In this document: in pieces, positions 347 to 48,622 of the stretch
How the letters are laid out: each line of letters opens with the position of its first letter
Numbering within the stretch: position 1 is the first letter of the stretch
Source: Cyanobium sp. Morenito 9A2
GTDB taxonomy: Bacteria > Cyanobacteriota > Cyanobacteriia > PCC-6307 > Cyanobiaceae
NCBI RefSeq assembly: GCF_024345575.1
Contig: NZ_JAGQBJ010000007.1
Location: 1-64,000, forward strand
Direction: 5' to 3'
DNA: 64,000 nucleotides
The notes under the pieces: generated by a model
What the model was told of the DNA's origin: nothing
The model's database searches: none
Seen by the model: the letters and a program-made list of their open reading frames with translations, nothing else
Made by a program: the position numbers and the translations under genes

Positions 347-1363
347 TTATGCAGTCTGTCGATAGAGCTCCTTAAGCAACTGGTAGGCCTCGTTCAGCCG
401 ACGCATGGTCTCAACGGATCCACCGGCGTCAGGGTGATGGCTGACGGCCTGCTCCCGGTAGGCCTCGCGGATGGCCGCCAGGGTCAAGCGATGGCCCGCT
501 GCGGTAGGCAACTTGAGCAATTTGAGGGCACCGTGGAGGGTCAGGGTGTTTTCCAGGGCCTGGAAGGATGTTCCCCGGGGACGGCGCCGGAAACGGTGCA
601 CGAAGCGGCGAATCAGGGTGGGGATGCGCAGGGTCAAGGTGTCGGCGCTGAAGGGATCCTCCAGCAGACCGGCTGCGACAACGACGCGGGCGAACGATGG
701 CTCACAGGGCGTCCAGGCTGGGGCGAATTCCCTGACGATCTGCTCTGTGAGACTCCAGCTGAAGGGACGCCCTTCGCCCAGATCAGACTGCCTCCACAGG
801 TCCTGGGCCAGCCACACCATGGCGGCCTCCAGCACCGCAGCGTTCGCGGGCTGGCCATACAGATTGATCCAGTGCTCCTCGGCGGCGCGCAGGGCATCCT
901 CCAACTCGCGTCCCTGAACCAGAACCAACGACTCCGGCCCATGGCTGGTCTTCGGCGGGGGATTGAGACTGCGTTTCACCTGGGCCGTCTGGCTGCGCAC
1001 GAAGCCAGGCAAATCGATGCCAGCCGGAGGCGTTCGGACACTCTGGCTTGATCGGGGCCCCACGGGACCATCAGCCCCAAGCCATGGGCTGTCATCGAGA
1101 GCAAAATCAAACGCCAGTTCGGCCTGGGAGTCGCGGCTGACGAGCACCAAAGCCCCCCGCTCATGAAAGCTTGAAGGGGGACTCTCGTCTTCTTCGGGCG
1201 CGTCCTGCTCCTGGCCAAGAAGCACCAGTTCCAGAAGCCGCTCAATCAGATCTCCGCGCTTGCGCAGACCCCACTCCTTCTTGAGCGCATCAAGCTTGGC
1301 GAGCATCGCGATCGGCAGCTCGACAGTCGTGCGTCGCCTGTCCTGATCACTGGGGTTGGCCAA
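347..1363 (-). CDS. J-domain protein with N-terminal ribbon-helix-helix-like segment
   Basis: The 338-residue product has an unusual order. Residues about 10-48 (RRTTVELPIAMLAKLD, then GLRKRGDLIERLLEL) resemble a ribbon-helix-helix/CopG-type DNA-binding fold. The middle is a variable, partly helical region. The last ~60 residues form a J domain with the HPD tripeptide at 310-312 followed by the helix MRRLNEAYQLLKELY. J domains stimulate the ATPase of Hsp70 (DnaK) through HPD. The only start I see is TTG at 1363; no ATG/GTG would preserve the N-terminal domain. It follows the DUF3370 gene by 18 bases on the same strand. The J domain is certain; the DNA-binding reading of the N terminus is inference. 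Confidence 0.75.
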   Translation of the reverse strand: MANPSDQDRRRTTVELPIAMLAKLDALKKEWGLRKRGDLIERLLELVLLGQEQDAPEEDESPPSSFHERGALVLVSRDSQAELAFDFALDDSPWLGADGPVGPRSSQSVRTPPAGIDLPGFVRSQTAQVKRSLNPPPKTSHGPESLVLVQGRELEDALRAAEEHWINLYGQPANAAVLEAAMVWLAQDLWRQSDLGEGRPFSWSLTEQIVREFAPAWTPCEPSFARVVVAAGLLEDPFSADTLTLRIPTLIRRFVHRFRRRPRGTSFQALENTLTLHGALKLLKLPTAAGHRLTLAAIREAYREQAVSHHPDAGGSVETMRRLNEAYQLLKELYRQTA

Positions 1364-1381: not shown

Positions 1382-3037
1382 TCAGCGGCCCATGAGGTTC
1401 TTGATGATGCGCTGCTGGGCTTCAACCGCTTGCTGGTACCGATCCATCAGGGTCTGACTCAGGCGAGCCGGTGGGATGAACGCCGGAGGCATCCCATTCA
1501 CACCCGAGGACGGTGTTCCGATCAGGGCATTGTTGATCAACGGTGGGGGCGGCGGCGGCAACGGTTTGCGCCATGCGGAGGGAGGAAACGGCCGCGGTCG
1601 TTTCGACGCTGAGGATGCACGGGGACTCATTGGCGCCTTGACCTGCGCCGCCGGGATGCCGTTGGTGGCCACAGAGGGTGGAATGGGCGCCGCCGCAGCG
1701 GAACGGGCCGCCGCCGCGCGGGCGAGTGTCACCTGGCGCTCCCGTTCGAGCAACTGGGCCAGTTGCTCCTCGGGCACCACACTGAGCAAATGACCCGGGG
1801 TGCTGTCAGCGGGGTAGACGAGGCTCACTTTGACGGTGTTGGTGACCCCAGGACGGAGGTTCAAAGAGGCCAGCTGCAGGCTCTCACCGGAGCGCATGCC
1901 CACATGGACTTCCCGGTACCCCTCATCGGTCTCGATGCCGATCGAACCGCGGAAGGCCGTGAAGGTGCGGCCGTTCGGAGTGGGATGGCTGAGGGCCAGC
2001 GCGTAAGGACCGCTGCCGATCAGATTGAGCTGGACGTCAAAGCGAACCCCATAGGTGCCGACGTTGTCGAGGGAGGAATCCACCATGCGGCTGGCCAGTG
2101 GATTCACCTGAACCTCACGGGTGCCGAAGTTGTGACGGTTGGTGCTGGTCAGGGGCACGTGCAAGGCACCCTGGCGCAGGTCGTAGGACAGCGATGCCTG
2201 GTAGGCATCGCCATAGGCCACACCAGCAACCCTGGAGAACACCCGACCGCTGTCGATGTCCGCGAGCCTGTTGAGGTAAATCCGACCAGGGGCAAGAACA
2301 CCCTGATCGAGAACGGCAACGATGTCGTAGTCATTCTCAGGGTTTTTAGCCGCGACCACGGCCATCTGGAACGGGCCATCGCTCCGCCCGCGCAACAGGC
2401 CGTTGGCGATGCCCTGGGCCGGAAGCTGCGTGCGGAACAGCACCATGCGGCTTCGGGGAGGCACCACCACCTCCGACGGCAGGCGCGCGTCCAACTTCCC
2501 TCGCAGCATCGTCACCGCCGTGGCATCACCGGGCCCGGTGTTCCAGGGGCGAGGCCCCAGGGGCTTGACCCCCATCAAATAGTTGGGTCGGTAGGGGGCC
2601 TCAAAACTATTGCTGAAGGCTCCCCGATCGAAGCGGATTCGTACCGGCTGATAACCGGGATTGATCAGGATCGTGGCCAGGGCGAGCTCAGAACGAACGC
2701 GGCCAGGGGTCGGCTCAGCTCCCGGCGGAGCTGCGTACTTGTGGTGGACATGCAGCCCGAAGTCACCGTTGAAGGTGAAAGCGGCGTTGGTGAGGGGTTG
2801 TCCGCTCTCGGAGGTGACCGCCGATCCTGGAGCGGTGTTCACCAGAATCCCAGGCCCGAAAACCTCTTCGGGCTGGTTGGAATGCAGCACGGGCACGTTG
2901 TTGAAACGACCGCTCAGGGGGCGAGCGGCTTGCCCTGCCATCAGGGGGACGTAGGCCCAGGCCATGGGCGCCTGAAGAAGAGCGCCGCCAAGGGCAGCCA
3001 ACAAAAAAGACCGCCTGAGACCCGTGGGACCAACCAT
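1382..3037 (-). CDS. DUF3370 family exported protein
   Basis: A 551-residue protein of the cyanobacterial DUF3370 family, recognised by its start after the signal peptide (VPLMAGQAARPLSGRFNNVP) and the following conserved fold. Residues 1-28 look like a Sec signal peptide: RR near the N terminus, a hydrophobic core FLLAALGGALL and an AWA cleavage site. The last ~130 residues are Ala/Pro-rich, including a run of six prolines, suggesting a flexible or wall-spanning tail. Function is unknown; a periplasmic or surface location follows from the signal. I prefer ATG at 3037 over the TTG at 3043. Confidence 0.8.
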   Translation of the reverse strand: MVGPTGLRRSFLLAALGGALLQAPMAWAYVPLMAGQAARPLSGRFNNVPVLHSNQPEEVFGPGILVNTAPGSAVTSESGQPLTNAAFTFNGDFGLHVHHKYAAPPGAEPTPGRVRSELALATILINPGYQPVRIRFDRGAFSNSFEAPYRPNYLMGVKPLGPRPWNTGPGDATAVTMLRGKLDARLPSEVVVPPRSRMVLFRTQLPAQGIANGLLRGRSDGPFQMAVVAAKNPENDYDIVAVLDQGVLAPGRIYLNRLADIDSGRVFSRVAGVAYGDAYQASLSYDLRQGALHVPLTSTNRHNFGTREVQVNPLASRMVDSSLDNVGTYGVRFDVQLNLIGSGPYALALSHPTPNGRTFTAFRGSIGIETDEGYREVHVGMRSGESLQLASLNLRPGVTNTVKVSLVYPADSTPGHLLSVVPEEQLAQLLERERQVTLARAAAARSAAAAPIPPSVATNGIPAAQVKAPMSPRASSASKRPRPFPPSAWRKPLPPPPPPLINNALIGTPSSGVNGMPPAFIPPARLSQTLMDRYQQAVEAQQRIIKNLMGR

Positions 3038-3225
3038 TCTCAAAACTTGTCTGATTCGCGAACAGCTGATGGGTCAATCCGTCGTCTTCGCCCAGAGCAT
3101 GTCATGACTGTGCCGGGGAGGAGAGGGAAGTGATCGGGGCTCGGGTGGATCTCACCAGCGGTGGATCAGTCGCGCGTCTTCGGTTGGAAAACCGTTAGAA
3201 GCGTGCCGAACCGCATCATTTTCCC

Positions 3226-7905: not shown

Positions 7906-8178
7906 TCAGCCGTAGAAAAAGGCAATCTCCCTGGCCTTCAGGCCCTCCCAGCCCGCAGCCTGAAGACGGGCATCGAGGCTGGCCTGATCCAGGTGCTTGG
8001 CCCCGGTGCGCACGATTCGGTTGCGCATCGACTTGCGCACACCGCTGCGGGCCCGCTGGGCCTCCAAGGCCATCACCTCGTTGTAGAGCTCCAGCATTGC
8101 CGCGGGCAGGGGTGATCCGTCGAGATCAAGGCCAGCGGCGATCGCCTCATCAACGCCACCGGGTCCGGCTATGGCCAT
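7906..8178 (-). CDS. Conserved hypothetical protein (90 aa)
   Basis: A 90-residue, mostly helical protein: MLELYNEVMALEAQRARSG, then a basic stretch VRKSMRNRIVRTG and LDARLQAAGWEGLKAREIAFFYG. The conserved-looking SMRNRIV segment and terminal aromatic residues suggest a genuine small cyanobacterial family, possibly nucleic-acid or protein binding. No named domain is recognised. It follows metH by 78 bases on the same strand and may be co-transcribed with it. Confidence 0.65.
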   Translation of the reverse strand: MAIAGPGGVDEAIAAGLDLDGSPLPAAMLELYNEVMALEAQRARSGVRKSMRNRIVRTGAKHLDQASLDARLQAAGWEGLKAREIAFFYG

Positions 8179-8256
8179 GGAAAGTCAGGCAAACAGATTG
8201 CAAGCCTGCCATCCGAGCACCCCTGGCGGTTGGCCAGCCCCTCGAGAACGGTTGGA

Positions 8257-11200
8257 TCAGACACTGAAGTAGCGGGCGCGGCTGTGCAGGGCCACGAGGG
8301 CCGTGGTGCTCTGCTCGGGCTCAAGCTGATCGCTCTCATCCATGCGCAGGCCGATCCGCTCGGCCCCCAACCAGACCAACTGCTGGCGTGAATCGGCCAC
8401 GTTCGGGCAAGCTGGATAACCGAAGGAATAGCGGCTGCCGCGGTAGCGCTGGGCCAGTACATCACGCAACTCTGAGGGCTCCTCGGCCCCAAACCCCAGC
8501 TCCCGGCGGATACGGGCGTGGGTCCACTCCGCCAGGGCTTCGGCCAGCTGCACCGCCAGCCCATGGAAGTAGAGATAATCGCTATAGCGATCGGCAGCGA
8601 AGAGCTCCCGGGCAAAGGCACTGGCCTTCTCCCCCATGGTCACCGCCTGCATCGGCACCACATCCATGGGGTGCCCCTCCACCAGATCTCTGTAGAAATC
8701 CGCGATGCAGTAGCGGTTGCCGCCCCGCTGGCGGGGCAGATCGAAGTGGCCTAATGCGCGGCTGGAGGCAGCGGGATCAAACACCCGCAGGGCATTGCCC
8801 TCGCGGCCAGCGGGGAAATAGCCATAGGCCAGGCGGGGCGTCAGCAGGTTGCCTTCCAGGCAGCGCTGGGTCCAGTCGGCCAGCACCGGCTCGGCTTTTT
8901 CCTTTAGAAAGGCTTCATAGGCCTCACGGCTTTGGTCCTTGGCCTTGCGCAGCTGCCACTGACCAGCGAACAGGGCGTTGCGATCGAGGTACGCAAACAC
9001 CTCCTCCAGGGAAATCTGTTCCTCCAGCAGCACCTGGCTGCCCCAGAAAGGTGGCGTCAGCGCGGGTTCTTCCGGTACGACCTCCGATCGGGCCTCGCTG
9101 GTCGCCGGCACAGGAGCATGGCTGAAATCGTCGAGGCTGCCTTCACCAGAACCATCAGCCGTGCCGTTGCTGACGGCCTCAAGGCCGGTGGCGCCATCAA
9201 GGCCCAGGCCAGTGGGGGCGCCCGCCAGAAATCCCCTTTTCGCCTCCCACTGGCCCGTGTCACGGGCCTCCACGTAGGCATCCATGAAACGCAGATCAGC
9301 GAAGGCGTCACGGCCGTAGATCACCTGGCCGTTGTAGACGGAGCGGCAATCCTTGTTCACAAACCTGGGAGTGAGCGCCGCGCCCCCGAGGATCACGGGA
9401 ACGTCGATGCCGGCTGCGTTGAAGGCCTGCAAGTTATCTTTCATGAAGGCCGTGGATTTCACCAGTAGGCCACTCATGGCGATGCAATCGGCCTGATGAA
9501 GCCTCTGGGCTTCAATGATCGCTTCTACGGGCTGTTTGATGCCAAGATTGATAACCTCATAACCGTTATTTGTGAGGATAATATCAACAAGATTCTTGCC
9601 AATATCATGGACATCTCCCTTCACAGTGGCGATCAGGAATCTAGCCTTCGCCCGCCTCTGACCGCCCGCTTCATCTCCTTCCGCCCGATCCATCAGTGGT
9701 TCAAGAAAAGCCACAGCCGCCTTCATCGTTTCGGCGCTCTGGAGCACGAAGGGTAGTTGCATCTGGCCGGAACCGAACAATTCACCCACCACCTTCATGC
9801 CATCAAGCAGGAAGGTATTGATGATGTGCAACGGCGGGTAGCTCTCAAGGGCCTGTTTGAGCGAAGCCTCCAGGCCAATGCGTTCGCCGTCGATGATGTG
9901 CTGCTTGAGCCGTTCCTCCACGGGGAGGTCCGCCAGGCTGGGCCCTGAGGCGCGGGCCTCCCGCGCGCTCACCCCCTCGAACAGTTTGGTGAGCTCGGTG
10001 AGAGGGTCATAGATGCAGACCTCAGCGTCAAAGCGACGGGCATCGTTGATGAGGTCGCGGCACACCTGCTGATGCTCAGGGCTGATCTTGGCCAGGGGCA
10101 GGATCTTCGCCGGGCTGACGATCGCCGCATCCAGACCCGCTTGGCAGCAATCGCTCAGGAACACCGAATTGAGCACGATCCGGGCGGCTGGGGAGAGTCC
10201 GAAGCTCACGTTGCTGACCCCCAGCACCACATGCACGCCTGGCAACCGCCCGCGGATCAGACGGATGGCCTCAACCGTGGCCGAGGCGTTCTTGCGGTCT
10301 TCCTCGATACCCGTGGAAATCGGCAGGGCCAGGGGGTCGTAGAAGATTTCGTAGGCGGGTAGGCCAAACCCAAGGGCGTCGCGGTAGGCACGCTGGGCAA
10401 TGGCAAACTTGCGCTCAGCGGTACGCGCCATGCCCTCCTCGTCAATGGTGCCGATCACCACACCGGCCCCATAGGACTTGGCCAGTTCAAGCACCTTGAA
10501 GAAACGCTCATCGCCATCTTCGTAGTTGGTGGAGTTGAGCAGACATTTTCCGCCGGACACCTTGAGACCCGCCTCCATCTTCTGCCACTCGGTGGAATCG
10601 AGCATCAACGGCAGGCTCACATTGGTGACGAGTCGGCTCACCATTTCATGCATGTCGCGCTCTCCGTCGCGACCCACGTAATCGACGTTGACATCGAGCA
10701 CGTGGGCGTTCTCCTTCACCTGACCGCGGGCCACTGCCACCAGACCATCCCAGTCTTCGGCATTGAGCAGTTCTCGCACCTTCTTTGAGCCGCTGGCATT
10801 CAGCCGCTCGCCGATGATCAAAAAGGAGTTGTCCTGAAGGTAGGGGGTGACGCCGTAGATCGAGGCCACGGAAGGCTCGTAGGCCAAGGCTGGTCGCTGT
10901 TGCTGGAGCGCCGGGGTGCGTACCGCCCGTTGGTGCGGCTTGAGGCCCTTCGCCATCTCAGCGAGGGCGGCGATGTGGGCGGTGGTGGTGCCACAGCAGC
11001 CGCCGATCACCTGCACCCCCAGATCCTCGACGAAATGCAGCAATTGCATCCGCATCTCAAGGGGCGTGAGGCGGTAATGGGCCACGCCGCCAATATTCTC
11101 CGGCAGGCCGGCGTTGGGGATGCAGCTGACCACGAAGGGGCTGTGCTCGCTGAGGTAGTGCACGTGCTCCTTCATCTGCTCAGGACCCGTGGCGCAGTTG

Positions 11201-45587: not shown

Positions 45588-46523
45588 TCACTCCTGTTCG
45601 AGGCCGAGCTGCTGCAGGCGGCGGTAGAGCGCTTCCTCGGCTTCGCTGAGCTGGTCGGGCACCACGATGCGGATTTCCACCAACTGGTCGCCCCGTTGCT
45701 GATCCAGCTCCAGCCCCCGACCACGCAGCCTCAGCAAACGGCCGCTGGAGGACCCGGCCGGCACCCGCAACTTCACCGGCCCCGCCAAGGTGGGGACCAC
45801 CACCGAGCAGCCCAGGGCGGCATCGGCGGGCAGCAGCTCCAGGGGGTAGCTCACCCGCAGGCCATCGACCCGCAGGCCCTCATCGGTGCGGACGCGCAGC
45901 TGCAGAAAGTGGTCGCCGCCGCCGGGGGTGACCCCCGCCAGGCGCAGGCGCCAGCCGTCCCCGGCCAGGGGTGGTGTCCAGACCTCCACAGTGGTGCCAT
46001 CGCTGAGCTCCAGCTCGATCCGCTCCCCAGCCAGGGCCTGCTCCGGGGTGAGCTCCACCAGGGTTTCCTGGTCAGACGCCGCGTGAACGGGCGGGGGCGA
46101 CGCCGAAGCAGCGGTCACCTCACCGGGGCCGCCAGGCGGCTCAGGGGCCCGCTGCTGCCAACCCCCTCTGGCCGGTTCTGGAGGCGCTTGAGCCTGCTCG
46201 GAAGGACGGCGGCGAGCGAACAGACTGTCCAGATAGGTGTCAAAGTCGGGAAATCCGGTGGCAAAGGGATCTGAGGCGTTGCCCATCGCCGGATCGCCCC
46301 CCGACTCCCAGGCCTGACGCCGCTTCGGGTCGGTGAGCACCGCGTAGGCCTCATTGACGAGCTTGAAGCGCTCCTCGGCCACCGGATCGTTGCCGTTGAG
46401 GTCCGGGTGCCAGCGGCGGGCCAGCTGGCGGAAGGCGCGCTTGAGGGCAGGACCATCGGCACCGGGCTCCAGGCCCAACACCGCCCAGTAGTCGGAGCCG
46501 GCGGTGGCGGCGGTGCGGGTCAC
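45588..46523 (-). CDS. J-protein (DnaJ/CbpA type, without zinc domain)
   Basis: A 311-residue Hsp40. The J domain occupies residues ~10-75 with the HPD motif in RRWHPDLNGND. A Gly/Pro/Ala-rich linker follows, then two beta-sandwich client-binding domains (LTPEQALAGERIELELSDG, VSYPLELLPADAALGCSV) and no CxxCxGxG zinc centre, i.e. a type II/CbpA-like protein. GTG 46523 begins five bases after the dnaK stop, so it is the cognate partner of that Hsp70. Confidence 0.93.
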   Translation of the reverse strand: MTRTAATAGSDYWAVLGLEPGADGPALKRAFRQLARRWHPDLNGNDPVAEERFKLVNEAYAVLTDPKRRQAWESGGDPAMGNASDPFATGFPDFDTYLDSLFARRRPSEQAQAPPEPARGGWQQRAPEPPGGPGEVTAASASPPPVHAASDQETLVELTPEQALAGERIELELSDGTTVEVWTPPLAGDGWRLRLAGVTPGGGDHFLQLRVRTDEGLRVDGLRVSYPLELLPADAALGCSVVVPTLAGPVKLRVPAGSSSGRLLRLRGRGLELDQQRGDQLVEIRIVVPDQLSEAEEALYRRLQQLGLEQE

Positions 46524-46528
46524 GCGGC

Positions 46529-48622
46529 TCAGACCTCCGACCAGGGGTCGTCGTCGTAGGGACGGCTACGAGGCAGGGGCGCACTGGATCGGCGCGGGGG
46601 GGCCTCGTCCCGCTCGTAACGACGGGGCGCCGCCGGGGTGCGCTCGCGGCCATAGGTGGGCTCAAGCCAAGGGTCGCGTCCGTAGCGGGGGGAACCGCCC
46701 GGACGGTCCCAGTCATCCCAGTCATCGTCCGAGAACAGCTCATCCTTGAGCGAGCCCAGGGTGTTCTTGAGGCCCTGCAAGGGATTGGAGTCCTGCTTGC
46801 GCTCACTGCTCAGACGCCGGTTGAGTCCATAGATCGCCTCCTGCAACTGGCTCACGGCCAGATCGAGTTCCTGCAAGTTGGCGGCTTCGCCCGGGGCGAG
46901 CAGATCCTGCACTTCGCGCAGGGCCATCTCCACCGAGCGCTGCTGGCGTTCGGCGCCATAGGGCCCCAGTTCAAGGGCGGCATCCCGCAGCCGGCGCTCC
47001 GCCTGGGCCACCAGGGTCTGGGCGCGGTTGCGGCGATCGATTTCCGCGCGCTTGCGCCGGTCGTCGCCGGCCTTGCGCTCCGCCTCCTCCAGCAATCGGG
47101 CGATCTCCTCCTCGCTGAGGTTGGAACCGCCCTGGATCGACACGCTCTGCTGGCGGCCCGTGGTGCGATCGGTGGCCGAAACCTGGAGCAGCCCGTTGGC
47201 ATCGATGTCGAAGGACACCTGGACCTGGGGGACACCGCGGGGTGCCGGGGGGATGCCCGCCAACCGGAAACGACCGAGCGACTTGTTGCCCTCCGCCATC
47301 TGCCGCTCCCCCTGGAGCACGTGCACCTCCACCGAGCTCTGGTTGGCCTCGGACGTGCTGAACAGATCGGACTTGCGCACCGGAATCGGGGTGTTGCGCG
47401 GGATCAGCACCTTCATCACCCCGCCGATCGTCTCCAGGCCCAGGGAAAGAGGGGTGACGTCGTTGAGCATGAGGTCGCGAAGTTCGCCGGTGAGGATGCC
47501 GGCCTGCACCGCCGCCCCGATCGCCACCACCTCATCGGGGTTCACCGACTGGCAGGGCTCCAGGGGAATCAAGGTGCGCACCATCTCCTGGACCATCGGC
47601 ATGCGGGTGCTGCCCCCCACCAGCACCACATCGTCGATGTCCTCCGCCGCCAGGCCCGAATCCCGCAGGGCGCGCTGGACGGGCCGCAGCAGGCGGTCGA
47701 GGAGGTCGGGGCAGAGTCCTTCGAACACTCTCCTCTCCAGGGTGGTCTCGATGTGCAGGGGGCCATCGGGACCGGTGGCGATGAACGGCAGGGACATCGG
47801 GGTGCTGGTCACCCCGGAGAGCTCCTGCTTGGCCTTCTCCGCCGCCTCGGTGAGCCGCTGCAAGGCCTGGCGATCCCGACGCAGATCGAGGCTGTGCTCG
47901 GCCAGAAACGCCTCCGCCAGCCAGTCGACGACGCGCCGGTCCCAGTCGTTGCCTCCCAGCTGGGTGTCGCCGCTGGTGGCCTTGACGTCAAAGACGCCAT
48001 TGGCAATGCGCAGCACCGAGACATCAAAGGTGCCCCCCCCCAAGTCAAACACCAGCACCCGTTTGACCGTGCTGCGATCGAAGCCGTAGGCCAGGGCCGC
48101 GGCGGTGGGCTCATTGAGGATGCGCTCCACGGCAAGGCCCGCCAGACGGCCCGCATCCCGGGTGGCCTGGCGTTGGGCGTCATTGAAGTAGGCGGGCACG
48201 GTGATCACCGCCGCCTCCACCGGCTCCCCCAGATAGGTGGAGGCGTCATCGACGAGTTTGCGCAGGATGCTGGCCACCAGCTCTTCAGGGGCGTACTCCC
48301 GCTCGGTGGCCGGGCAGACCACACGCACATTGCCCTGGTCGTTGGCGCGCACCGTGAAGGGCACTGAAAGGCTGTTGTCCTCCAGCTCGTTCCAGCCACG
48401 GCCAACGAAGCGCTTCAAATTGGCAAAGGTGTTGCGGGGGTTCAGCACCAGCTGGCGGCGGGCCAGCTGACCCACCAGCAGGTCCTGATCACGGCTGAAG
48501 CCCACGACCGAGGGCGTGGTGCGCCCGCCTTCGGCGTTGGCGATCACCTGGGGTCGCCCACCCTCCAGCACCGCCACCACAGAATTGGTGGTGCCAAGGT
48601 CGATGCCGACGATTCGCCCCAT
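46529..48622 (-). CDS. dnaK: Hsp70 chaperone DnaK (paralogue with divergent tail)
   Basis: A 697-residue Hsp70. ATPase marks are GIDLGTTNSVVAVLEGG, VPAYFNDAQRQATRDAGRLAG, NEPTAAALAYGFD and VLVGGSTRMPMVQ. The linker and substrate domain follow (DVTPLSLGLETIGGVM). The last ~90 residues are unusual: instead of an acidic EEVD-like or EExD end they are rich in Asp, Trp, Arg and Pro (DDDWDDWDRP, PYDDDPWSEV). Cyanobacteria have several DnaK paralogues, and a long odd tail is reported for DnaK3, which associates with thylakoids, so DnaK3 is possible. ATG 48622 is the family start. Confidence 0.95.
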   Translation of the reverse strand: MGRIVGIDLGTTNSVVAVLEGGRPQVIANAEGGRTTPSVVGFSRDQDLLVGQLARRQLVLNPRNTFANLKRFVGRGWNELEDNSLSVPFTVRANDQGNVRVVCPATEREYAPEELVASILRKLVDDASTYLGEPVEAAVITVPAYFNDAQRQATRDAGRLAGLAVERILNEPTAAALAYGFDRSTVKRVLVFDLGGGTFDVSVLRIANGVFDVKATSGDTQLGGNDWDRRVVDWLAEAFLAEHSLDLRRDRQALQRLTEAAEKAKQELSGVTSTPMSLPFIATGPDGPLHIETTLERRVFEGLCPDLLDRLLRPVQRALRDSGLAAEDIDDVVLVGGSTRMPMVQEMVRTLIPLEPCQSVNPDEVVAIGAAVQAGILTGELRDLMLNDVTPLSLGLETIGGVMKVLIPRNTPIPVRKSDLFSTSEANQSSVEVHVLQGERQMAEGNKSLGRFRLAGIPPAPRGVPQVQVSFDIDANGLLQVSATDRTTGRQQSVSIQGGSNLSEEEIARLLEEAERKAGDDRRKRAEIDRRNRAQTLVAQAERRLRDAALELGPYGAERQQRSVEMALREVQDLLAPGEAANLQELDLAVSQLQEAIYGLNRRLSSERKQDSNPLQGLKNTLGSLKDELFSDDDWDDWDRPGGSPRYGRDPWLEPTYGRERTPAAPRRYERDEAPPRRSSAPLPRSRPYDDDPWSEV

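Follow-up and report, generated by a model that had tools for sequence, protein, structure and literature searches.

A picocyanobacterial protein that combines a ribbon-helix-helix-like N terminus, an orphan helical region and a C-terminal J domain

The window analysed here is a stretch of 64,000 nucleotides from Cyanobium sp. Morenito 9A2 (contig NZ_JAGQBJ010000007.1, positions 1 to 64,000), and the gene at 347-1363 encodes a predicted protein of three parts: a ribbon-helix-helix (RHH)-type N terminus, a mostly helical orphan region at about residues 111-272, and a C-terminal J domain (Table 1). Sequence comparison and AlphaFold modelling indicate these parts, their order, their joint occurrence among genomes and an intact HPD motif. 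At a probability of about 40%, we read the protein as a lineage-specific class C J-domain protein that would address DnaK, through its RHH, to a DNA site or a DNA-bound complex; this is our best single guess, narrowly ahead of a co-chaperone in which the RHH serves for dimerisation only.

Table 1 Features of the RHH-J gene and its upstream neighbour (positions in the window).
Feature	Position	Strand	Basis or remark
Whole coding sequence	347..1363	minus	338 aa plus stop, TTG start; full-length homologues aligned
RHH N terminus, residues 9-49	1217..1339	minus	Pfam, PDB profile, AlphaFold
Variable acidic linker, residues 50-110	1034..1216	minus	pLDDT < 50 over 55-110
GIDLPGFV motif and helix 120-133, residues 111-134	962..1033	minus	Invariant columns, AlphaFold
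Helical domain, residues 151-272	548..913	minus	AlphaFold; among sampled genomes only in this RHH-J protein
Strongly basic stretch, residues 241-266 (helix 240-260)	566..643	minus	Charge over 50 homologues
J domain, residues 276-338, HPD at 428-436	350..538	minus	Pfam, structure alignment, HPD count
DUF3370 gene	1382..3043	minus	Upstream neighbour, 18 bp gap; Pfam PF11850, E 4.7e-90; probable operon partner

Searched alone, the window protein matched both RHH_1 and DnaJ of Pfam below threshold, and its relatives were therefore used to decide. A preliminary description, made from the sequence alone, had recognised the RHH-like N terminus and the J domain at the C-terminal end, and both stand; it had overlooked the middle region, where half (25) of the 50 invariant columns in an alignment of 50 homologues fall (J domain, 20; RHH, 2). 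By this measure conservation is lowest in the RHH.

The RHH_1 match of the window protein (residues 11-45; E 0.024, 15.0 bits against a cut-off of 20.5) and its NCBIfam matches, all far below cut-off and including DnaJ_bact (E 0.0018) and the BrnA antitoxin (E 0.083), make for a weak RHH call when this protein is taken alone. Among the 50 aligned homologues, RHH_1 matched 33 at E <= 0.1, the best at E 9.8e-6. An N-terminal profile of 46 rows, searched against all PDB sequences, retrieved NikR at the top (E 0.018) and then CopG (0.04), with further RHH matches to a second NikR (0.13), TCP15 (0.17), a CopG-family regulator (0.56) and yiiF (1.1); individually these E-values are not strong, but the matches are in mutual register. 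ETV6/TELSAM chains, interspersed at E 0.05-0.9, aligned only from residue 36 or 37 onward and look spurious, and the full-length profile found NikR again (E 0.016 and 0.029). NikR, an RHH with a metal-sensing domain, and CopG, an RHH alone, share an N-terminal strand-helix-helix sequence pattern in register with the fusion, in which a J domain comes after.

AlphaFold, supplied with the 50-row alignment, predicts helices at residues 18-31 and 36-49 (pLDDT blocks of 83-92) with a tight turn between them. Alignment to NikR and CopG places a strand at residues 9-16; DSSP assigns none to the monomer model, where residues 9-17 are non-helical, which would fit a strand formed solely by pairing within a dimer. 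Second-look structure alignment of the N terminus gave CdbA (Z 5.4 over 52 residues, rmsd 5.9), a Z value common for unrelated chains. The profile matches and the model lift the RHH-like reading of the N terminus above chance. A simple coiled coil is supported neither by the profile search nor by the structure prediction.

At the other end, Pfam DnaJ matched residues 294-332 of the window protein alone (E 1.4e-5; 25.6 bits, just under the cut-off of 27.8), the same site reached 28.8 bits, above cut-off, in the whole-genome search, and all 50 aligned homologues matched at E <= 0.1. The HPD (residues 310-312) lies between predicted helices 295-308 and 317-337 and is kept in 110/110 homologous ORFs, a set in which some genomes are counted twice under different ids; R299 and Y302 are present in 50/50 homologues. 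These results bear out the earlier description of a J domain with HPD at the extreme C terminus. The predicted J fold aligned with chain B of 2guz, the Tim14-Tim16 complex (Z 10.3, 63 residues, rmsd 1.5), with the DnaK-bound J domain of 5nro (Z 7.2, 57 residues, rmsd 2.5) and with the polyomavirus T antigen 1faf (Z 7.5). T antigens, which carry HPDxGG, are among the best J matches to the fusion and resemble it in the J domain only; theirs is N-terminal, by the title of 1faf, whereas that of the fusion is C-terminal. The DNA-binding part of T antigens is unrelated.

The fusion, with its J domain at residues 276-338, does not have the layout of class A/B J proteins (DnaJ, CbpA), in which an N-terminal J domain precedes C-terminal substrate-binding domains; among the families listed for the 50 homologues there was neither a DnaJ C-terminal domain nor a zinc domain. 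A phage origin was rejected, as the six viral contigs matched all did so within residues 275-338 and the five PHROG matches lay within 266-333. Seven J sites in the window genome score above cut-off, the fusion's included; of its four Hsp70-family matches, two are close to full length. No DnaK gene adjoins the RHH-J gene; the one in the window lies about 45 kb away, where a J-domain gene and an Hsp70 gene stand close together on the minus strand (46308-48613).

We searched 386 genomes of the phylum with the window protein and again with the 50-homologue alignment. Within the window's family, 57/58 genomes had the full-length or near full-length protein, against 0 of the other 328; the total of 58 is taken to comprise the 57 matching genomes and G294, the last family member among the non-matching genomes listed, after which come remoter kin. 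Among the matches listed outside the family, all fell toward the C terminus and most within the J domain; the longest spanned residues 241-333. Among the best 80 of 296 homologues, named records are mostly Synechococcus, Cyanobium and Prochlorococcus, from which we infer that the window's family is the picocyanobacterial one. The proposed conservation of both ends in picocyanobacteria is upheld by the RHH_1 (33/50) and DnaJ (50/50) counts given above and by the aligned full-length relatives.

G294 is rated 100% complete and holds remnants of both gene ends, the first interrupted by stops, with about 560 bases missing at the same site relative to a related locus, L181. The decayed copy is locus L180 (G294:C1:878500-882500), and its host is probably a Prochlorococcus. 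In a wider family sample, an N-terminal profile matched 165/201 genomes and 120/130 of the more complete ones, counts that standalone RHH paralogues can raise. Of the 36 non-matching family genomes, 10 were searched with the full profile: in one, a contig end truncates the copy; eight matched over the J domain only, in frames of 176-306 aa that we read as different J proteins; and the last gave nothing at E <= 0.001. The protein is thus widespread rather than universal. The RHH and the middle domain were absent together in nine of these 10. Its decay in G294 and the failure to find it in some family members indicate that the gene is dispensable.

The strongest alternative to DNA addressing is that the RHH merely dimerises and that the protein is a client-specific co-chaperone, its middle domain selecting the client and DNA never being touched; we hold this to be a genuine but tentative possibility. 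R4/T6/T8 of CopG and R5/S7/S9 of NikR, positions that face DNA, align with residues 11, 13 and 15 of the fusion. Residue 11 is R in 43/50 homologues and residue 13 is S/T/Q/N in 49/50 (S/T in 40), with which base reading would be compatible; residue 15 is E or D in 36/50, with which it would not, and this acidic position speaks for dimerisation alone. The same holds for the near neutrality of residues 1-50 (mean net charge +0.24, range -5 to +3 over 50 homologues) and for the concentration of 45/50 invariant columns in the middle and J domains as against 2 in the RHH. A mere clamp, however, might not need the residues that are kept in this region, namely R11, S/T13, R34 (48/50), R36 (49) and G37 (50); L16 (49) and G32 (50) are likewise conserved. 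CopG and NikR, moreover, are DNA-binding regulators, and their presence among the PDB profile matches argues against a domain that never meets DNA. The RHH core (residues 9-46) has a mean net charge of +1.8 versus -1.1 for 13 control RHH cores, which were weakly aligned, mostly from one antitoxin-like family and of unproven DNA binding; they came from 59 phylum genomes, in which alignment to the family core succeeded for 18/30 loci (E 0.009 to 0.93), 13 of them distinct. One control from the window genome (L211) also has D at the third strand position. DNA binding by the fusion's RHH is plausible.

No clear operator was seen by eye in upstream alignments of 14 Prochlorococcus loci (six closely related and eight other), and before DUF3370 no perfect 6-bp inverted repeat with a spacer of up to 8 occurred in 80% of loci (13 + 7 + 7 = 27), the search covering perfect inverted repeats and not imperfect or direct ones; both results again favour dimerisation without DNA contact. 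The six related Prochlorococcus loci (L098, L102-L104, L108 and L111) share a conserved upstream block, ATTATATAAATTCA then GTGTGTTGA, with none in the second set; it may be a promoter or regulator site, perhaps just a promoter.

In other genomes of the window's family, small standalone proteins close in sequence to the fusion's N terminus were observed at L144 (488-730, plus strand), L145 (537-731, minus strand), L146-L149, L155 and L156. Two were scanned for RHH_1, with L144 scoring 20.9 bits, over the cut-off of 20.5, and L145 16.9 bits, under it. Such proteins are possible mixed-dimer partners of the fusion, judging by their sequences; within the window genome itself, there was no second match to the N-terminal profile.

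Upstream of DUF3370 follow a sigma-70 family factor, then an Ap4A phosphorylase and a SpoIID protein. Of the best 80 of 296 loci, 61 have DUF3370, all on the same strand and 59 of them separated from the RHH-J gene by -4 to 54 bp (starts by rule), which suggests that the RHH-J gene is usually, and probably, in an operon with it. Two of the 80 loci have less than 200 bp of upstream sequence, and the 17 others without DUF3370 comprise 16 titled Prochlorococcus and one Synechococcus MAG. Since 16/17 Prochlorococcus-titled loci keep the RHH-J gene without DUF3370 (the exception is MIT 0701), the gene does not depend on this neighbour, and the adjacency may be only positional. No literature on DUF3370 was found in a mostly open-access coverage.

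RHH proteins often autoregulate, and the position of the gene, second in a probable two-gene unit, invites a reading as a chaperone-controlled repressor: the RHH would repress a stress operon, possibly the one it belongs to, and the strength of repression would depend on DnaK recruited by the J domain. The nearest start codon by rule in the 110 homologous ORFs (GTG in 77, ATG in 24 and TTG in 9) is consistent with this, as GTG or TTG in 86/110 may mean low expression. A precedent exists in Streptomyces, where DnaK is the corepressor of HspR according to the title of a work cited in PMC2687793. We nevertheless give this reading little credence, considering that no common inverted repeat precedes DUF3370, that none was seen by eye in the 14 Prochlorococcus upstream regions, and that nearly all Prochlorococcus-titled loci keep the gene in the absence of DUF3370.

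Between the RHH and the J domain, residues 51-110 carry a mean net charge of -10.5 over 50 homologues, and I116, L118, P119 and F121 of the GIDLPGFV region are invariant in 50/50. Residues 151-260 are confidently helical in the AlphaFold model (pLDDT blocks of 91-98). The basic stretch (residues 241-266) has a mean net charge of +7.6 (range 5-10), with R246, P248, T249, R253 and F254 invariant and R252, V255 and F258 nearly so. A middle-domain profile found one match per genome in the same 57/58 family genomes and elsewhere among the 386 only two, at E 0.003 and interrupted by stops. Its single match among PDB sequences had E 1.3, Foldseek gave nothing confident (best E 1.1 in the PDB and 0.45 among viral structures), and the second-look structure alignment (VIA) reached a best Z of 3.7; the middle domain has no confident fold match, and a missing match alone does not make a new fold. 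A J protein associated with RNA or the ribosome, docking by basic helix 240-260 and with the RHH as dimer clamp, would account for this charge and for the invariant R253 and F254 and their nearly invariant neighbours, but no RNA-binding domain gave a confident fold match (Foldseek and second-look alignment), and we consider it the least probable of the readings weighed here.

Several described systems lie close to the fusion. Passages of PMC8215388 describe class C J-domain proteins that, like the fusion, have only the J domain in common with DnaJ, that may carry DNA-binding domains, and in which the J domain can stand at any position. The preliminary statement that J domains are usually N-terminal was accordingly overstated; a second J-protein family in genomes of the same family (L151, L152, L153 and L154, with a shared GFDPRxW near the start) also has its J domain at the extreme C terminus. 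E. coli CbpA is a DNA-binding J protein (PMC2955964), and its H. pylori counterpart, besides binding DNA, stimulates DnaK and makes contact with the repressor HspR (PMC7074700); both bind DNA as dimers. CbpA, as portrayed in PMC4063869 and PMC4344490, has an N-terminal J domain and is without motifs of other bacterial DNA-binding proteins, whereas the fusion has a C-terminal J domain together with an RHH and an orphan domain. For Myxococcus xanthus, PMC10313047 describes the CdbA/CdbS/CsdK system, in which an RHH nucleoid protein has a functional link to chaperones of the DnaK type; that system divides RHH and chaperone between different proteins, and in the fusion a single protein carries an RHH and a J domain. 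Given these class C proteins and CbpA, the fusion is, by its recognisable domains, a new combination within an already described kind, the class C J-domain proteins. No RHH-J fusion was found in the mostly open-access literature covered on J proteins, RHH/CopG and cyanobacteria. In PMC2823733, on clade signature proteins, "DnaJ" is absent from the main text, and the portion of the tables covered lists no clade C protein of 330-380 aa.

For the fusion we infer a dimer, DNA binding, a client and a DnaK partner. Under the favoured reading, two copies would dimerise through their N-terminal RHH with strands paired, and the RHH dimer would grip a DNA site or DNA-bound complex. The flexible acidic linker would leave the helical middle domain and its basic helix free to meet a nearby client or nucleic acid, and the C-terminal J domain would trigger ATP hydrolysis by DnaK, which could then hold and remodel the client at that site. 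That the fusion carries DnaK to DNA is plausible from its parts, and this explanation is favoured by the RHH profile and model evidence, the intact HPD throughout the homologous ORFs, the joint occurrence in 57/58 genomes and the CbpA precedents. It is weakened by the failure to find an operator in the upstream regions compared, the acidic residue 15, the near-neutral residues 1-50 and the RHH's 2/50 invariant columns, as well as by the dispensability of the gene and the lack of an adjoining DnaK gene. A more specific form of DNA addressing, in which the RHH dimer itself picks chromosomal sites, the J domain loads DnaK onto whatever occupies them and mixed dimers with the standalone RHH paralogues of some of the same genomes possibly widen the set of sites, strikes us as rather unlikely.

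If the RHH does bind DNA, abundant marine phototrophs would have one protein that directly couples a DNA address to the Hsp70 machine. Elsewhere, this coupling is made by separate proteins or by CbpA, which has no recognised DNA-binding motif. Even without DNA binding, this would be a widespread picocyanobacterial co-chaperone with an orphan domain, for which we found no earlier study and which can be tested in culturable strains.

Among the 110 homologous ORFs (start by rule), GTG starts of the RHH-J gene were also seen in AT-rich Prochlorococcus. No RNA or tRNA genes were found around the RHH-J locus in four loci. In one record titled as a Bifidobacterium breve MAG (L105), the locus is picocyanobacterial and its gene order unchanged, which points to a misnamed or contaminated bin. 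In L035, the convergent downstream gene (7940-8446, minus strand) resembles, by eye, a phycobiliprotein (allophycocyanin-like) subunit.
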